From positions 1,364,001-1,428,000 of the forward strand of contig NZ_CP019285.1 of NCBI RefSeq assembly GCF_000226975.2: a stretch of DNA of 64,000 nt, given 5' to 3'. Of this stretch, positions 33,466-43,952 are shown in pieces. The notes below the pieces were generated by a model. The model ran no database searches. It saw only the letters and a list, made by a program, of their open reading frames with translations, and had not been told where the DNA came from. How positions within the stretch are numbered: position 1 is the stretch's first letter; every line of letters begins with the position of its first letter. Made by a program: the position numbers and the translations under genes. Origin of the DNA: Halobiforma lacisalsi AJ5. GTDB lineage: Archaea > Halobacteriota > Halobacteria > Halobacteriales > Natrialbaceae.

Positions 33466-34914
33466 TTACCCCGAAGTCTCAACAGCCGGTTCAGTGTGAG
33501 CCCGTGATATCATCTCATTGTTGTTGACGACTCGGCGAAGTTCTTCGTAGGGATTGCGTCCCTGCTGGCGCCATGTCGCCAGCAGGGACAAGATCGTCTC
33601 GTGAACGAACATACCTCGATCGTTACGGAGTGTCCCGATGATTTTCCGGAGAACGACTGGTTCACGAAGTGCGTTCTCAGCTGCGTTGTTCGTCGGGGAG
33701 ACCGCTGGCTCACCGACGAAGGTGAGCCAGTGGTCGATCCCTCCTTCGATTTTCCCGAGTAGTGTTGCCACTGGTTCGTCGGTTACTGACCGCCCCACGA
33801 GCGATCTAAGCCCGTTCTGGCATGAGCGGTGCATCTGTGCTCTCTCACGAAGACTCGGGTCGGTCTCCAGCCACGACTGGAGACCGACGAACATCTGCTT
33901 GAGATACCGGTAAACGGGTTCTGCCTCCTCGTGGTCACTAGCAGCGTCTTCAGCTTCTCGGAGAAGATGTGCCCAGCACCGCTGAAGGTTACTGCTGAAC
34001 GCTGGATACGCCGTCCACCCATCGCAGATGACCGTTCCCGGGAAGTCCTCGCCGAGGACTTCCGCGGGAACATCACTTCCACGACTCTCCCTTACGGCGT
34101 ATAGCGTGTGCTCGCTCGTCCGAAACGTCCAAATCCACGCCTGCTCACCCTCGCGTTTGATACCGGTTTCGTCAACGTGAACGATCTCTGCTTGCTGAAT
34201 CTGTCTTCGAATCTGTTCGTATTCGCAGCGACCGGCGCGCGCAGCGCGCTCGGTCGCGTGCCACGCGGACGCGCCCGAGAGTTCTAATCCATGCAGTTGC
34301 TCGAACCGGTCAGCGATTTTCCGGTAGGGGAGGCGGTGATCGTACCGAGAAAGTGCTGCTTGAGAGATGACGTTCACCCCGAACTGCCCCTCATCGGGGC
34401 AGTCGGGGTGTGTAGCAACGGTTTCTGTTCCACAAGAGCTGCACTGGTAGTAGTGACGGTTGTACCGGGTGATTTCTGGTGGCTGTGGATCGGGAACCTC
34501 CTCGACGAGTCGGGGGCTGACGCCCACCGACTCGTCGAAGTGTTCGCCACACTCGGGACAACAGTCACAGGTGACATCGATCTCTTTGTCGGGATCTGCT
34601 GTTGCACGCCACTCAGGGTCGTGACCGTCCTTCCGTCCGGGAGTACCGCCATCGGTTCGAACATTCTCGTCTTCGTCGTCCTGCGAGGTCGGGGACTCGT
34701 CAGTCCCCGACCGTCGCTTACTGGGCGGTGTATGCGGATTTTCGTATTTGCGAAGGCGTGTTTCGAGTTCTTCTATCCGCTCGTCCTTCTGATCGATTTT
34801 CTTGTCCTTTCGCTTGTTCTCCCGTTCGAGTTCTTCGACTCGTTGCTCAAGTTGGAGAAGCCGAGAAAGGAGCTCTTCTTTGGTGAAATCGTCTGCGTTC
34901 ACAGACTCCACCAA
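33466..34914 (-). CDS. tnp: IS66-family transposase
   Basis: 482 aa, start ATG 34914. N-terminal leucine-zipper-like coiled coil (residues about 15-56, LLSRLLQLEQRVEELERENKRKDKK), then a Zn-binding Cys-rich region (CDCCPECG near 116-122 and CSSCG near 158-162), then the DDE core. Catalytic residues: D248 in IVHVDETG, D298 in VICDGWTAY, E413 in NNAAENALR. The length is full and no frameshift is present. The stop lies 8 bp inside the left terminal repeat. Expressed from inside the element towards the lipoprotein gene, so read-through is possible. Confidence 0.95.
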   Translation of the reverse strand: MVESVNADDFTKEELLSRLLQLEQRVEELERENKRKDKKIDQKDERIEELETRLRKYENPHTPPSKRRSGTDESPTSQDDEDENVRTDGGTPGRKDGHDPEWRATADPDKEIDVTCDCCPECGEHFDESVGVSPRLVEEVPDPQPPEITRYNRHYYQCSSCGTETVATHPDCPDEGQFGVNVISQAALSRYDHRLPYRKIADRFEQLHGLELSGASAWHATERAARAGRCEYEQIRRQIQQAEIVHVDETGIKREGEQAWIWTFRTSEHTLYAVRESRGSDVPAEVLGEDFPGTVICDGWTAYPAFSSNLQRCWAHLLREAEDAASDHEEAEPVYRYLKQMFVGLQSWLETDPSLRERAQMHRSCQNGLRSLVGRSVTDEPVATLLGKIEGGIDHWLTFVGEPAVSPTNNAAENALREPVVLRKIIGTLRNDRGMFVHETILSLLATWRQQGRNPYEELRRVVNNNEMISRAHTEPAVETSG

Positions 34915-37726: not shown

Positions 37727-38569
37727 CTACCGCTCTCGCTCCACGACGAACTCGGCCAGTTCGAGGAGGTACTCCTTCGCCTCCGGATCGACGACATCGA
37801 CACGCTCCAGGGCGTCGATCGCTCGATCCGCCTCCGTCCGGGCGCGCGCGTTCGCTTCTTCGGGCGTGAGATCGGTCACCTGGACGACGGAGGGCCGCTC
37901 GAGGGCGGCGTCGTGGCCCGTCGGCTTCCCCAGTTCGTCGGGGTCGGCGACGGCGTCGAGCACGTCGTCCCGGATCTGGAAGGCGACGCCGACGCGCTCG
38001 GCGTATTCGCCGAGGGCCTCGACGGTGAACGGGTCGGAGTCGGCGGCGATCGCACCCAGTTCGGCGGCGGCCCGGAAGAGCGCGCCCGTTTTCCGGCGTG
38101 CGAGAGTCATGTACTCTTCCTCGTTTCCGGGTTTGGCCGACAGTTCCGTCGCCTCGCCGATGCCCAGTTCCACCATCGCCTCCGCGACGACCTGCGTCGC
38201 GCGCGGATCGGTCGAGAAGAGCGCGAACGCTTCACCGAGGAGTCCGTCGCTCGTGATGATCGCCGGCCCGTGGCCGAACTCGGCCCACGCGCTGGCGGTG
38301 CCTCGACGGAGCTCGGAGCGGTCGATGATGTCGTCGATCACCAGCGAGGCGTTGTGGACGAGTTCGATGCCGACGCCGAACTCGACGGCCTCCTCCGCGG
38401 TGCCGCCGACCGTCTCGCAGGCAAGCAGAGTGATCATCGGTCGAACACGCTTTCCGCCGGAGAGCGTCACGTGGCGAACTTCCTCGTTGAGCGTCTCGGG
38501 CTCGAGTCCGTCAACGACGTCGGTGAGGCGCTCTTCGATCAGCGCCCGACGGCGCTCGAGAAGTTCCAT
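37727..38569 (-). CDS. idsA: Geranylgeranyl/farnesyl diphosphate synthase
   Basis: 280 aa short-chain trans-prenyl transferase giving C20 (and C15) chains for archaeal ether lipids and quinone tails. Start ATG 38569 (MELLERRRALIEERLTDVV). First Asp-rich motif DDIID in VIDDIIDRSELRRG, second DDVLD in QIRDDVLDAV, plus GGKRVRP at residues about 38-44 for substrate binding. The residues before the first motif are small, consistent with C20 chain length. The gene and its 50-bp upstream region have a degenerate copy at 42597-42655, on the other side of the transducer operon. Confidence 0.93.
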   Translation of the reverse strand: MELLERRRALIEERLTDVVDGLEPETLNEEVRHVTLSGGKRVRPMITLLACETVGGTAEEAVEFGVGIELVHNASLVIDDIIDRSELRRGTASAWAEFGHGPAIITSDGLLGEAFALFSTDPRATQVVAEAMVELGIGEATELSAKPGNEEEYMTLARRKTGALFRAAAELGAIAADSDPFTVEALGEYAERVGVAFQIRDDVLDAVADPDELGKPTGHDAALERPSVVQVTDLTPEEANARARTEADRAIDALERVDVVDPEAKEYLLELAEFVVERER

Positions 38570-38622
38570 TACCCGCGCTTAGGACGGGGGTGAAAAATAC
38601 GTGACGGTTCGGAAAGGTCCGA
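38563..38622. repeat. Copy 1 of a duplicated idsA promoter/start segment
   Basis: 60 bp that include the idsA start codon (CAT at 38567-38569) and the following upstream region with a TATA-like GTATTTTTC on the minus strand. By eye 51 of 60 positions match copy 2 at 42597-42655, with one single-base gap. Both copies are in the same orientation. Confidence 0.85.
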
Positions 38623-38731
38623 ATTCCTTCGTTTCGTCCGTGTCACTACCGACAGAGTCCTCGGGTCGTTCTCTATTATATCACTGTTCAGCCAACATTC
38701 TTATCCCATTTTTGTCATCGTTGTCTGTCGG

Positions 38732-41092
38732 TTAGTCGTCCGCGTCTTCTCCGAGACCCGGCTCGATAACACTGGGTCGGTCGCCGTCGTCTCCCGTCCC
38801 GCGATCGTCCGCCCCTCTTCCGAGTTCGAAGTGGTCGAGCGTTTCACTCAGTTGCGACGCTTGATCGGCAAGCGAACTGGCACTTTCCGAGACCTCCGAG
38901 AGCGCGGACGTCTGTTCCTCGGCTGCGGCGGCGACGCTCTGTGACTCTTCGGCGGTCGATTCGGCGATTTCCGTCGCCGAGGAGATCATTGCAAGGATCT
39001 CCTGTGTCGAAGCGGCCTGCTGTTGGGTGGCGGCGGAAATCTCCTGGACGCCATCGTTGGTGTTTTCGGCGCGATCGGCGATTTCGTCCAGTGCAGTGGC
39101 TGCGTCCTCGACCGAATCGACGTGTTCGGAGATGCGAGTTGCCGTTCGCTCGACGTCCGCGACGGTTTCCGACGTCCGATCGTTGATGCGGTCCAGCCGA
39201 TCCTCGATGTCTTCGGCAGTCGATCTGGTGTCCTCTGCCAACTCTTTGACCTGGGTTGCAACGACATCGAAGCCGGCACCGTCAGCGGTGTCACCGCGTG
39301 CTGCCTCGATGTTCGCGTTCAACGCGAGCATGTTCGTCTCACGAGCGATATCCGTAATCAACTCGACCAGTTCGTCGACCTGTGCCATCTTCGTCTCGAG
39401 GTCCCGAATTGCCTCGACCGCCTCCTCGGATTCGGCTTCGATCTCGTGCATGCCGTCGATCGCCTCTTTGGCGGCTTCCCGACCGTTACGGCCCGTTTCA
39501 GCCATTTGAGAGGCCATCTCGGCGACCTCGCTCGAGGAGGCAGCGATCTCCTCGGTCGTCGTCGACAGGTTCTCCATCTCTCGGTCGACCGTCTGCAGGG
39601 ACTCGTTCTGGTTTTCGGCCCCGTCGGAAATCTCCTGGATCGATTCGGAAACCTGCTGAGACGCCGCTTGCACTTCCTGTGTACTCGCAGTCACCTGTTC
39701 ACTGGCTGCTGCAACCTCGTCCGCGAACGCTCTGACGTCCGCCGTCGTCTCCTCGAGTCGTCCGACCATCTCGTTGAACGCGACCGCGATGTCGGTCATC
39801 GCATCGCTCTCGCTTTCGGGATCGAGTCGCCGGGTGAGGTCACCGTCAGCACAGGCAGCCATCGTCGTACTGAATTCCTCGGCTTTTCGCTCCAGATGAC
39901 GCGTCATCCGCTCGATCTCCTCGCGTTCCTCCTCGGCCTCGCGTTCGGCCGCTTCCGCCTCACGCTGTGCCTCGGTCGCCTCTTCGCGCTTCTGTTCGGC
40001 CTCTTCCCGGGCCGCCTCGGCTTCCTCGATTTGCTCGCGAAGCGACGTTCGCATCGCATCGAAGCCGTCGAACAACTGTCCGATCTCGTCGGTTCGGGTC
40101 GTCTCGAGATCGACCTCGAGGTCGCCAGCCTCCATCGATGCTGCCCGGTCACGGAGGGTCGTTACCGGCCCGACGGTCTGTCGGCCGAGAACGACCCCGA
40201 TCAGACTCAGGACACCCAGGTTCAGGGCGAGCATGAGCAGGATGTTGTTTCCGACGCTGGCTGCGACGCCGTACGCTTCCTCGGTCGGGACGCTCGAGAC
40301 GGCGATCCACTGGGTGTCACTCACCGGGACGTACGAGTGGACTCGCTGTTCGTCGGTCACCAACTGTGATCGACCACCGAGAGCCGCCTCGAGGGCCTCT
40401 TCGTCGGCATCGACTGCGGCGTGGTCGGCCTGGAACACGTCGTTGCCCTCCGCATCGAGGATGAGCGTCGACTGTGCTGTGTCGTCTTCCTGTAACTGTT
40501 CGATCTGGTACTCGAGCGTACCGATCACGACGACGACCCGGTCGTCGCGGTCCTGGACTGGGCTGGCAAACGCCATCACCTGGTCTTCCAGGGTGGGTGA
40601 TTCGTACGCCTCCGGCGTGTGCCAGACCTCCTCGTCCAGCATGAACTCCGAGTCGAAGTCGTGATCGCTCCATGGCTCCTCGAGATCCGCGAGCGGCCTG
40701 TCGCGGTAGGCGGCGGTCGTGCTAGTGACGATTTCGTCCGATTCGGTGTCGAGGTAGTGGATCGCGCGGACGTTGACGCCCATTCGGGCCTGTTCTTCGA
40801 CGAGGTGGGCCTGTACCTCCTGTGGGTTGCCCTCCTGGAGGACGGGCGAGGCCGAGGCGGTACGGGTTTGGACGGAGAGTGACTCCATCCAGGAACTGAT
40901 TTCGTCGGCCTGCATTTCGGCGGTCGTTTTCAACTGCGTGTTGGCGTCGTCCTGGACGGTGTTGTCGACGTAGACGTAGCTGCCAGCGCCGACGACGCTC
41001 ATGACGAGGACGACGACAAGTATAGCGAGCACGAACTTGGCGAGATAACTGCGCCTGATGAACGACGGGACGAGTGTTGTTGCGAGTGACAT
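38732..41092 (-). CDS. Methyl-accepting chemotaxis transducer (Htr type)
   Basis: 786 aa. Membrane helix 1 about residues 17-41, external sensing domain about 42-280 (Cache-like), helix 2 about 282-303, HAMP about 304-355, an EEA-rich coiled coil 352-400, a second HAMP-like segment about 400-450, then the signalling domain. The conserved tip is ITDIARETNMLALNANIEAARG (about residues 579-600), which binds CheA and CheW, plus adaptation helices rich in Glu/Gln pairs. The gene sits 9 bp downstream of a substrate-binding lipoprotein gene, matching the BasB-BasT and CosB-CosT arrangement of Halobacterium, in which the binding protein presents the ligand to the transducer. Start ATG 41092. No che genes are nearby. 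Confidence 0.9.
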   Translation of the reverse strand: MSLATTLVPSFIRRSYLAKFVLAILVVVLVMSVVGAGSYVYVDNTVQDDANTQLKTTAEMQADEISSWMESLSVQTRTASASPVLQEGNPQEVQAHLVEEQARMGVNVRAIHYLDTESDEIVTSTTAAYRDRPLADLEEPWSDHDFDSEFMLDEEVWHTPEAYESPTLEDQVMAFASPVQDRDDRVVVVIGTLEYQIEQLQEDDTAQSTLILDAEGNDVFQADHAAVDADEEALEAALGGRSQLVTDEQRVHSYVPVSDTQWIAVSSVPTEEAYGVAASVGNNILLMLALNLGVLSLIGVVLGRQTVGPVTTLRDRAASMEAGDLEVDLETTRTDEIGQLFDGFDAMRTSLREQIEEAEAAREEAEQKREEATEAQREAEAAEREAEEEREEIERMTRHLERKAEEFSTTMAACADGDLTRRLDPESESDAMTDIAVAFNEMVGRLEETTADVRAFADEVAAASEQVTASTQEVQAASQQVSESIQEISDGAENQNESLQTVDREMENLSTTTEEIAASSSEVAEMASQMAETGRNGREAAKEAIDGMHEIEAESEEAVEAIRDLETKMAQVDELVELITDIARETNMLALNANIEAARGDTADGAGFDVVATQVKELAEDTRSTAEDIEDRLDRINDRTSETVADVERTATRISEHVDSVEDAATALDEIADRAENTNDGVQEISAATQQQAASTQEILAMISSATEIAESTAEESQSVAAAAEEQTSALSEVSESASSLADQASQLSETLDHFELGRGADDRGTGDDGDRPSVIEPGLGEDADD

Positions 41093-41101
41093 GGTGTTAG
41101 G

Positions 41102-42379
41102 TTAGTATGGATCGAGACGGTCGATTTCCGTGATACCGGTGTCGGCAGTGCTGTCGAACTCCCAGTACTCGAAGGTCGTGTCGGTTGGGTCGCCGTTGTC
41201 GTCGAAGCCGGTTTCGTTGGCCGCGCCGCGGTATTCGACGGCGGAGCCCTGTGCGGCGAGTCTGATCCCGTCGGCGATCGTCTCAGGGGTGATCTCTTCG
41301 CCGCCTGGGCTCGTGACGGTGTGGATGGCGTTCTGGATCGCCTGGCCGTCGTTTTGGCCGGCATATGCGTTTGCGAGCAAGAGCACGGCGGTCGCGTCGT
41401 AAGCGTAGAATTCGAAGAGATCGGGGTCGCCGGTGTGGGCGTCGGCGTACAGATCGGTGAAGGTGTCGATGCCGGGACCGTCGATGAGTGGTGCGATTCC
41501 CCTGATCCCATCGAGCGGGTAGTCGACCCGTTCGTGAAGGTCACCCAGGCGGATGGCGTCGGTACACAACAGGTCGAAGGTGCTGTCGGGGTCGAGATCG
41601 GTAAACAGCGTCCGGGCCATTTCGGGGTAGATCGCCGGGATCACCAGGTCCGGATCCGATTCAGTGAGTCGGTCGATAGCGCTGTCGTAGGAGTCTGCGG
41701 TGACGTCGACGGGGACGTGATCGGTGATCGTCCCGTCGTGAGTGGTTTCGAACGCGCGCTCGAAGGCCTGGCTGAGTTGCCAGCCGTAGTCGTTGTTGAC
41801 GTACAGCGTCGCAGCGGTATCGACGCCCCGGTCGGTCGCAGCAACGTCGGCCATGACTGTTCCTTGAACGGCATCGGAGAGTGCCGTTCGAAAGACGAAC
41901 CCCCCGTCGTTGAGCGTGGTGAGAGTCGGGGTCGTCGCCGCAGGCGAACAGGCGGTAATCTGGTACGGAATGAGCACCTGCTGGGTCGCCTGCAGGACGA
42001 TATCGGAGTCGAGCGGACCCGTCACCATCGGATACCCGTCGTCGACGAGCGATGCCGCCGCCTGTGCAGCGGTCACCGGATCGCTTTCGGTATCCGCTTC
42101 GGTGTACTCGATTTCGATCTCGAGATCGGGATCGTCGCGGACCTGCTGGATAGGGAGGGTCGCGGCGGCGAGGATGTCTTCGCCGACGGCACTGCGTGGA
42201 CCGCTAAGCGGGAGCAAGATACCGAGTTTGATCGTCCGATCGGTGCTACGAGTTCCGACGCCAGAACCGGTCGTCCCGGAATCGGTGCCGGGAAGCGTGC
42301 CGGTACAACCTGCGAGGCCGGCGAGGGAACCACCGGCGAGCCCCGAAAGTAGTCGTCGTCTGTTCGGATTGCTGCCCAT
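41102..42379 (-). CDS. Substrate-binding lipoprotein for the adjacent transducer (branched-chain amino acid/amide type)
   Basis: 425 aa, start ATG 42379 (MGSNPNRRRLLSGLAGGSLAG) with RR motif and lipobox LAGC, indicating Tat export and lipid anchoring. The mature part has the type I periplasmic-binding fold of LivJ/amide-binding proteins: IKLGILLPLSGPRSAVGEDIL, AAATLPIQQVRDDPDLEIEIEYTEADTES, GPLDSDIVLQATQQV, TLYVNNDYGWQLSQAFE, and a C-terminal TIADGIRLAAQG. There is no ABC permease or ATPase gene nearby, so a chemotactic, not transport, role is inferred. It is the first gene of the pair; the transducer starts 9 bp after its stop codon. A specific ligand cannot be told. Confidence 0.85.
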   Translation of the reverse strand: MGSNPNRRRLLSGLAGGSLAGLAGCTGTLPGTDSGTTGSGVGTRSTDRTIKLGILLPLSGPRSAVGEDILAAATLPIQQVRDDPDLEIEIEYTEADTESDPVTAAQAAASLVDDGYPMVTGPLDSDIVLQATQQVLIPYQITACSPAATTPTLTTLNDGGFVFRTALSDAVQGTVMADVAATDRGVDTAATLYVNNDYGWQLSQAFERAFETTHDGTITDHVPVDVTADSYDSAIDRLTESDPDLVIPAIYPEMARTLFTDLDPDSTFDLLCTDAIRLGDLHERVDYPLDGIRGIAPLIDGPGIDTFTDLYADAHTGDPDLFEFYAYDATAVLLLANAYAGQNDGQAIQNAIHTVTSPGGEEITPETIADGIRLAAQGSAVEYRGAANETGFDDNGDPTDTTFEYWEFDSTADTGITEIDRLDPY

Positions 42380-42860
42380 ATTACTGGGGTAAATTTTGCT
42401 GCATGTAGTTCTGGTGGCCATTTTGGAGCTATCTGCCACTAATTGTGTGTATGTGTGAAGGGAACCATCAACTCAAATACTATTCCGGAGCCATTTTAGC
42501 TCTCTCCGGTGTGTTTGGATATAGCTACTTTTTGCTTGCTGGTAACTCTACAGTGGTGGTGCGTAGTCACGGCTGGCAGCCGAAGCCGTGACGACAGTTC
42601 CATTACCCGCGCTTCGGAGGGGACAAAAAGTACGCGACGGTTCGCAAAGTTCCGAGTTTTCGTGCCCTTCCGCTGGGGAACGCGGTTCCATTCTACCCTC
42701 CCTTCCCGTCCTGTCGCTGTCACGCTGTTTACTGCATCGACGGTTTCGCCGACGAACCGTTCGGTTCGCGTACGTTCCTGACGTCGCTCGCCTCGAGACG
42801 GTCGAACGCATCGAGTGCCGTCCCGAACGCTTCTTTCTACGGGGGGTCGTAACACAGATC
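42380..42860. other. Intergenic region with promoter, hairpin and duplicated idsA segment
   Basis: About 480 bases without genes. Holds the promoter of the binding-protein gene (near 42383-42400, AATTTACCCC on the minus strand), the hairpin GTCACGGCT-N9-AGCCGTGAC at 42566-42592, the second copy of the idsA start region (42597-42655), and the promoter of the cytochrome-molybdopterin gene at 42861. The small frames here are noise; the one reading MELSSRLRLP is the duplicated idsA start. Confidence 0.6.
42597..42655. repeat. Copy 2 of the duplicated idsA promoter/start segment
   Basis: 59 bp, about 85 percent identical by eye to 38563-38622. On the minus strand it contains an ATG followed by GAACTG, as in idsA (ATGGAACTT), but similarity ends there: no prenyl-synthase coding sequence follows. 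Confidence 0.85.
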
Positions 42861-43952
42861 ATGGAAGACAGCCCGTCGGCCACCGTGCGGAGTGCCCTGG
42901 CTGCCGTCAGACCACCGCCCCGACTCGTCGACTGGTCGATCTTCACGGTCGTCGTGCTCGAGGCTGTTTCCGGGCTGGTCTCGTTTACTGTCGGCTCGCC
43001 GGCCGGCTGGCCGCTGTTCTGGCTCCACCGGATCTTCGGACTGACGCTCGTCGCGCTGCTGGGGTTCAAACTCGCTCGCGTTCGCCACCGGGTTCTCGAG
43101 ACCGAACGATGGCGCGCCTCGACGCTCCTGTCGGTCTGCACCGTGATCGCGGCGACGGGAGCGATCGCGACCGGTGTCCTCTGGACGTTCGGGCTAGACG
43201 TGCGACTCTCCTACTGGACGCTGTTGAGCGTCCACGTCGGGTTCGGTCTCGCCCTGGTTCCGCTGATGGTGTGGCACCTCTCGACCCGGTTCCGGCTCCC
43301 GAAACGGCGTGATTTCGATCGCCGGCGGACGACGCTCAAGTACACGGCGCTGCTGGCCGGTGGGGCAGCCGTCTATCGCACCCAGGTGTTCCTCAATCGT
43401 GCCCTCGAGACGCCCGGGGCGGACCGCCGGTTCACCGGGTCCCAGCCCCGGGAAGGGAGCGGCAACGGGAGTTTTCCGGTCACGTCGTGGGTCGCGGACG
43501 ACCCCGATCCGATCGACCCGTCGGCGTGGACGCTAACGATCGAGGGCGAGGTCGAAACCCCGCTCGAGTACTCCTACGACGGGGTGGCGCCGAACAGCGA
43601 CGAACGGGCGCTTTTGGACTGTACGAGCGGCTGGTACACCGTCCAGCGGTGGCGCGGCATCCGCGTGGGGGACCTGCTCGCGGCGGCCGACGTTCGAGAC
43701 GGGGCGGCGTTCGTGCGGTTCGTCTCGGTGACCGGCTACCGGTGGTCGCTGCCGCTCGAGGAGGCGCGAGAGGCGTTGCTCGCGACCCACGTCGGCGACG
43801 AACGGTTGAGCCACGGCCATGGCGCGCCGATGCGCCTTGTCGCCCCCGGACGGCGCGGGTTCCAGTGGGTCAAGTGGCTCGAGCGGGTGGAGGTCCGCCG
43901 GCGGTCCGATCCGGCACAGTGGGTCGTGACGCTGGTCAGCGGGTTCGAGTGA
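42861..43952 (+). CDS. Cytochrome b561-like membrane domain fused to a sulfite-oxidase-family molybdopterin domain
   Basis: 363 aa, start ATG 42861 (MEDSPSATVRSALAAVRPPPR). N-terminal half: about four membrane helices with paired His (LHRIFGLTLVALLGFKLARVRH; LLSVHVGFGLALVPLMVWH), a probable di-heme b561-type domain. C-terminal half from about residue 195: molybdopterin domain of the sulfite oxidase/MsrP family, with the Mo-ligand Cys in ALLDCTSGWYTVQRWRGIRVGDLL and the end WVKWLERVEV. The fusion would pass electrons between quinone pool and substrate at the molybdenum centre within one polypeptide; separate subunits are more usual. Substrate unknown (sulfite, sulfoxide or a nitrogen oxide are possible). 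It lacks a Tat signal, so the catalytic domain may face either side. Confidence 0.8.
   Translation: MEDSPSATVRSALAAVRPPPRLVDWSIFTVVVLEAVSGLVSFTVGSPAGWPLFWLHRIFGLTLVALLGFKLARVRHRVLETERWRASTLLSVCTVIAATGAIATGVLWTFGLDVRLSYWTLLSVHVGFGLALVPLMVWHLSTRFRLPKRRDFDRRRTTLKYTALLAGGAAVYRTQVFLNRALETPGADRRFTGSQPREGSGNGSFPVTSWVADDPDPIDPSAWTLTIEGEVETPLEYSYDGVAPNSDERALLDCTSGWYTVQRWRGIRVGDLLAAADVRDGAAFVRFVSVTGYRWSLPLEEAREALLATHVGDERLSHGHGAPMRLVAPGRRGFQWVKWLERVEVRRRSDPAQWVVTLVSGFE

Follow-up and report, generated by a model that had tools for sequence, protein, structure and literature searches.

A LIV-type lipoprotein and a dCache transducer of Halobiforma lacisalsi as a probable two-part amino-acid receptor in a lineage separate from BasT

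BasB and CosB, the binding lipoproteins of the transducers BasT and CosT in Halobacterium salinarum, were reportedly first described by Kokoeva et al. in 2002. We analyzed a window of 64 kb (the whole stretch of DNA examined, 1364001-1428000) from the chromosome of Halobiforma lacisalsi AJ5 (genome 4.38 Mb), in which a substrate-binding lipoprotein of the branched-chain amino-acid (LIV) type and a transducer are encoded side by side; the two genes probably encode one amino-acid receptor in two parts, of a lineage separate from that of BasT. According to Schlesinger et al. (2012; PMC3579733), BasB, CosB, OE2170R, and OE2196F co-purify with their transducers, OE3611R is BasT, and a physical complex of lipoprotein and transducer is reported for these H. 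salinarum pairs.

The BasB-BasT pair (L113) has a plan like that of the window pair, with the gene of a LIV-type lipoprotein exported by the twin-arginine translocation (Tat) pathway overlapping the gene of a transducer with dCache, HAMP, and methyl-accepting chemotaxis protein (MCP) domains, although the BasT ectodomain lies outside the lineage of the window transducer and BasB lacks the Tyr/Tyr/acid pocket positions of the window's clade. Htr6, encoded next to OE2170R (L115), has the nearest ectodomain in H. salinarum and the same layout, but its partner is of the BMP/PnrA type (PF02608, 176 bits) instead of the LIV type. Similarly, CosB-CosT (L116) is a pair of binding lipoprotein and transducer, but CosT sits on a long branch distant from the window transducer in our ectodomain tree, and CosB is of the OpuAC type (PF04069), not LIV. 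OE2196F gave no Pfam match. The comparison supports the window pair as an amino-acid transducer dependent on a binding protein, with an ordinary plan and a new lineage, distinct from BasB-BasT itself. The features of the pair are as follows:

41102..42379, reverse strand: LIV-type (Peripla_BP_6, PF13458) substrate-binding lipoprotein, 425 amino acids from ATG
42305..42379, reverse strand: Tat signal (RR at 7-8) and lipobox leading to Cys25, residues that are invariant among relatives
41093..41101, reverse strand: intergenic gap of 9 nt, the widest among 49 junctions measured
38732..41092, reverse strand: transducer of 786 amino acids, with a first transmembrane segment (TM1), dCache ectodomain, TM2, HAMP, coil, HAMP, and MCP signalling domain (Pfam; ectodomain model with Foldseek)
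40268..40975, reverse strand: dCache ectodomain, about residues 40-275 (Foldseek fold match)
40034..40189, reverse strand: first HAMP domain, residues 302-353 (PF00672)
38972..39481, reverse strand: MCP signalling domain, residues 538-707 (PF00015, E 5e-30), with the tip motif LALNANIEAA

An earlier note, made from the sequence of the window, had placed the end of the binding-protein gene 9 bp before the transducer gene and assigned its product to the branched-chain amino-acid type; the coordinates are exact, with the binding-protein gene upstream and both genes on the reverse strand, and the assignment holds in Pfam (PF13458, E 1.9e-32). All 13 aligned relatives have R7, R8, and C25, and with its Tat lipoprotein and a two-TM transducer carrying HAMP and MCP domains, the pair has the layout of the haloarchaeal transducers that depend on binding proteins. 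An AlphaFold (AF2) model of the mature binding protein (mean pLDDT, the model's own confidence measure, 86) matches LivK/LivJ-type proteins, with LivK 3td9 as the best match in the PDB (E 1.4e-23). In an alignment with three PDB chains, the positions matching LivJ Ser79, Thr102, Tyr150, Tyr202, and Glu226, which we take to be the reference residues of the pocket, are S125, T149, Y198, Y251, and D274. The same residues recur in the relatives: among the 33 proteins of clade A, that of the window, the T, the first Y, and an acid (D or E) are found in all 33, the second Y in 32, and the S in 27, and in clade D they are S, T, Y, Y, and D in 21 of 21, while BasB and its relative in genome G144 (which bears the genus code of H. 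salinarum) read S, T, F, S, S. Both the fold and the pocket residues of the LivJ/LivK alpha-amino-acid binding proteins (3td9, 4n0q, and 4gnr) are thus present, although these are named as components of ATP-binding cassette (ABC) transporters whereas the window protein has no adjacent permease. Because the LivJ-type pocket is intact, the ligand is likely to be an alpha-amino acid; the earlier view that the ligand cannot be inferred no longer applies to its class, but stands for the choice among amino acids.

The transducer matches MCPsignal and, in two stretches, HAMP (E 1.4e-19), and the EEA-rich coiled coil which had been noticed between HAMP-like segments indeed sits between the first HAMP domain and a second HAMP-like stretch. 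Its dCache_1 match (E 2.5e-07) is under the curated cut-off, but fold comparison confirms the assignment: the AlphaFold model of the ectodomain (pLDDT 76.5) matches the dCache chemoreceptors CtaA (6py3, E 1.3e-08), Mlp24, and PctA. Such a domain could itself sense the ligand, with the binding protein as an additional input, as in B. subtilis McpC. This arrangement, which we regard as unlikely, draws on the fold, which is that of the amino-acid chemoreceptors CtaA and PctA, and on the related ectodomains with no upstream binding-protein gene of the searched families (42 of 118). The residues of the dCache_1AA amino-acid motif include R126, W128, and Y129 of PctA, according to PMC10104139. A regular expression for this R-x-W-[YF] part, run with no PctA control sequence, found it in none of the 118 ectodomains, that of the window transducer included, and the conserved site where it would stand reads mostly E-P-W in the window's clade. 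On this absence, with the same proviso about the control, we rejected direct sensing of amino acids by the dCache domain, while another small ligand would still be compatible with it; the missing motif points to indirect sensing via the lipoprotein.

The searches for partners used a few representatives of these classes, so "no partner" means none of those families, and the ectodomain sample came from 60 stretches among the matches listed. L207 is counted among the rows with no upstream partner despite a BMP-type binding-protein gene just downstream, which overlaps the 3′ end of the related transducer gene in an order reversed from the usual one (L207 1913-5529, reverse strand).

The gene order etfB-etfA-binding protein-transducer-idsA is conserved across Natrialbaceae, and since the pair recurs in this conserved synteny, its association is not a matter of chance. 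One scan gave 20 clade-A and 13 clade-D loci (named relatives L058-L090) with the pair, and in 33 of these 33 a receptor gene of the same family is next on the same strand; idsA lies downstream in 18 of the 20 clade-A loci, with etfB-etfA upstream in most. The lineage of the pair is old in Natrialbaceae and present also in Halorubrum and Halovenus; in a survey of the family, 111 of 125 genomes have a protein that matches the binding protein with an E value of 0.001 or less, ABC-linked ones included. Junctions could be measured for 49 of 58 binding proteins (nine were not measurable): 21 are 4-nt overlaps, 21 are 1-nt overlaps, one is an 8-nt overlap, and six are gaps of 1-9 nt.

We weighed against the receptor the idea that the lipoprotein is an orphan transport component which feeds a distant ABC permease and adjoins the transducer incidentally. 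Outside the receptor-linked proteins, it is most closely related to ABC-linked LivJ proteins, which have the same pocket, and seven Haloarcula loci from the same scan are ABC-linked instead of receptor-linked. However, LivH and LivM were found around none of the 33 named loci, up to 10 kb on each side, where the receptor gene always adjoins, and start-stop overlaps join the two genes at most of the junctions measured. The earlier note had seen no ABC permease nearby and held that a neighboring one would speak against a receptor subunit; we looked for one and found none near the pair, the nearest of the ten PF02653 permease matches in the genome ending 343 kb away. These ten form five pairs, and each of the five has its own LIV- or BMP-type binding protein alongside. 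The absence of a dedicated ABC permease is as in haloarchaeal transducers that depend on binding proteins. Receptor adjacency, together with permease pairs that have their own binding proteins, disfavors a transport role, to which we give very little credence, and bears out the lipoprotein as most likely a receptor subunit.

A second alternative, equally improbable in our judgment, is that the pair is the strict orthologue of BasB-BasT, the same ancestral pair with the same ligands (Leu, Ile, Val, Met, and Cys), now diverged. The H. salinarum genome (G140), recognized by a bacteriorhodopsin of 100% identity, has a single LIV-type profile match; it adjoins a transducer, which from where it lies with respect to HtrII and CosT should be OE3611R/BasT. 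The Pfam family PF13458 and the gene order are common to the two pairs. But with BasB as query, the window binding protein reaches 66.6 bits (25.7% identity), compared with its 256 bits against an ABC-linked LivJ of its own genome; the score against an ABC-linked LivJ of genome G144 is 267 bits. Similarly, the best H. salinarum match of the window ectodomain is Htr6 (118 bits), and BasT is not among its 12 best matches. The pocket speaks against orthology as well, with F, S, S in BasB where the window's clade has Y, Y, D/E.

For the ectodomain tree, 118 rows were reduced to 74 by near-identity within partner class, and CosT was added (75 rows; one BMP-partnered row contains masked letters); for the binding-protein tree, 75 rows were reduced to 49 by dropping near-copies and partial rows. 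In the ectodomain tree, the LIV-partnered clades A and D group together (support 91), a second group unites ten BMP-partnered rows, Htr6 among them (support 100), and BasT and CosT fall outside a larger 61-row group (support 99); partner class requires 4 changes on this tree, against 30.8 in shuffles. A single clade of all LIV-partnered ectodomains, BasT included, is rejected in the approximately unbiased (AU) test (39.7 log units, p 0.019), although the tree was a quick one in which CosT and some others sit on long branches, and the group was chosen after the similarity scores had been seen. A clade of A, D, and the BMP-partnered ectodomains is not rejected (p 0.52). In the binding-protein tree, clades A and D lie on one side of a weak branch (89/55) and adjoin eight ABC-linked LivJ proteins, and the resulting 42-row set is split from BasB (90/96); a clade of A, D, and BasB, as orthology would have it, is 6.1 log units worse, which is not enough for rejection (AU p 0.177). 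Orthology with BasB-BasT is therefore rejected on the transducer side and disfavored on the binding-protein side. The topology on the transducer side suggests that BasT and the window's lineage acquired their LIV-type partners separately; the binding-protein tree agrees with this but is no proof of it. Related dCache domains thus have partners from different binding-protein families, the partner of Htr6 being of the PnrA/BMP type. The label "BasT/CosT-like" given to the pair before is thus supported for its way of working, as in BasB-BasT and CosB-CosT (receptor adjacency at all named loci, co-purification in H. salinarum), but not for strict kinship with BasB-BasT, the binding-protein similarity, the sensor tree, and the AU test placing it nearer Htr6.

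The two-part receptor that we prefer would work as follows. The Tat-exported, lipid-anchored LIV-type protein would bind an alpha-amino acid, as its pocket suggests, and close; judging from the gene pairing and the co-purification in H. salinarum, the closed lipoprotein would then dock on the dCache ectodomain of the transducer. The rod, whose domain order is dCache-TM2-HAMP-HAMP, would pass the change to the MCP hairpin tip, and the tip would control CheA through CheW and hence archaellar rotation. In the genome, MCPsignal has 24 matches (23 above the cut-off), the CheW domain six, and archaellin five (four above the cut-off), the nearest CheW-domain and archaellin genes being ~75-110 kb from the pair. 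In evolutionary terms, the lineage would have acquired its LIV-type partner separately from BasT, while Htr6, the sister transducer nearest to it in H. salinarum, works with a partner of the BMP/PnrA type. Another genome with a clade-A pair (L044, G119) has just three MCPsignal matches, the receptor of the pair among them.

The pair also occurs as a unit outside its usual locus, both in Halorhabdus and at another site in the window's genome, and both trees agree on this. The second copy lies at 1660-1668 kb (binding protein 72-73% and ectodomain 79-81% identical), with a further transducer on either side and another LIV-type lipoprotein gene close by; the stretch around it (L038 3221-14563; G000:C1:1657220-1668562) encodes three transducers and two LIV-type lipoproteins, including the pair that is paralogous to the window's. 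Two Halorhabdus genomes carry the pair, and both trees nest it inside the window's group, as would be expected if the two genes had been transferred together; in H. amylolytica (L060), no etf or idsA gene is found in the 10-kb flanks. Their receptors lack the signalling tip:

L168 4472-6259, forward strand: tipless Halorhabdus receptor
L169 3662-5449, reverse strand: tipless Halorhabdus receptor

The Halorhabdus receptor has 595 amino acids and aligns to the window receptor at 57% over the first 560 residues; neither an MCPsignal match nor the LALNA-x-IEA tip is found in these receptors, and about 190 hairpin residues, which bind CheA and CheW, are gone. MCPsignal matches above the cut-off number 11 in one genome and 13 in the other, and none lies at the locus of the pair. 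(Three clade-A receptors were classed as "other"; two are these, and the third runs off its stretch.) Between the two genomes, the receptor has a ratio of nonsynonymous to synonymous substitution (dN/dS) of 0.127, its shortened hairpin one of 0.109, and the binding protein one of 0.183 (dS ~0.4); the low ratio indicates that the tipless receptor gene is retained by purifying selection. Yet its product is not expected to interact with CheA and CheW as known receptors do.

Histidine kinases occur among the ectodomain relatives without an upstream partner, L182 by Pfam and six more by their C-terminal sequence. We propose tentatively, with rather more doubt than confidence, that the binding protein and dCache domain form a portable input module that need not serve chemotaxis. 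On this view, the loss of the tip under purifying selection would mean that the tipless form drives another output or tunes other receptors; LIV- or BMP-type partners and histidine-kinase outputs within one ectodomain family would mean that one dCache surface accepts type-I binding proteins of different families. Four dCache-HAMP histidine kinases from four genomes (L182 by Pfam; L195, L194, and L206 by sequence) have a lipoprotein-like family-5 cellulase gene directly 3′.

Several points weigh against a dedicated chemotaxis receptor of separate origin. The lipoprotein anchor does not discriminate, since lipid anchoring is usual among archaeal ABC binding proteins too; one binding protein can serve a distant transporter and a receptor both; the binding-protein tree admits BasB beside clades A and D; and the tipless Halorhabdus receptors imply that the module is not bound to chemotaxis everywhere.

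The neighborhood of the pair contains one further feature:

42596..42663, reverse strand: duplicate of the promoter and start codon of idsA, located ~220 bp 5′ of the binding-protein gene

This copy is 83% identical to the idsA promoter region (38562-38632) over 71 columns, with a local score of 80 against at most 29 in 300 shuffles. The resulting 71-bp repeat flanks the pair and raised the idea of a recent insertion, which we rejected, as the pair is ancestral at the site; what is new at the locus is a molybdopterin oxidoreductase gene (42588-43952) with the promoter copy, in two of five genomes of the genus (that of the window and H. haloterrestris). An open reading frame at 33466-34914 (reverse strand), ~3.8 kb from the transducer gene, resembles an IS66-type transposase (named from its sequence, with no search).

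The titles and abstract openings listed in our searches of open-access literature describe neither sister ectodomains with different types of partner nor a haloarchaeal receptor without the tip, and both are worth following. In archaea, it is poorly known how binding proteins choose between transporter and receptor and how receptors gain ligands. Here, closely related binding proteins serve receptors or ABC transporters, related sensor domains carry partners from two binding-protein families, and in a natural receptor without the tip, the detection of a ligand is uncoupled from chemotactic output.

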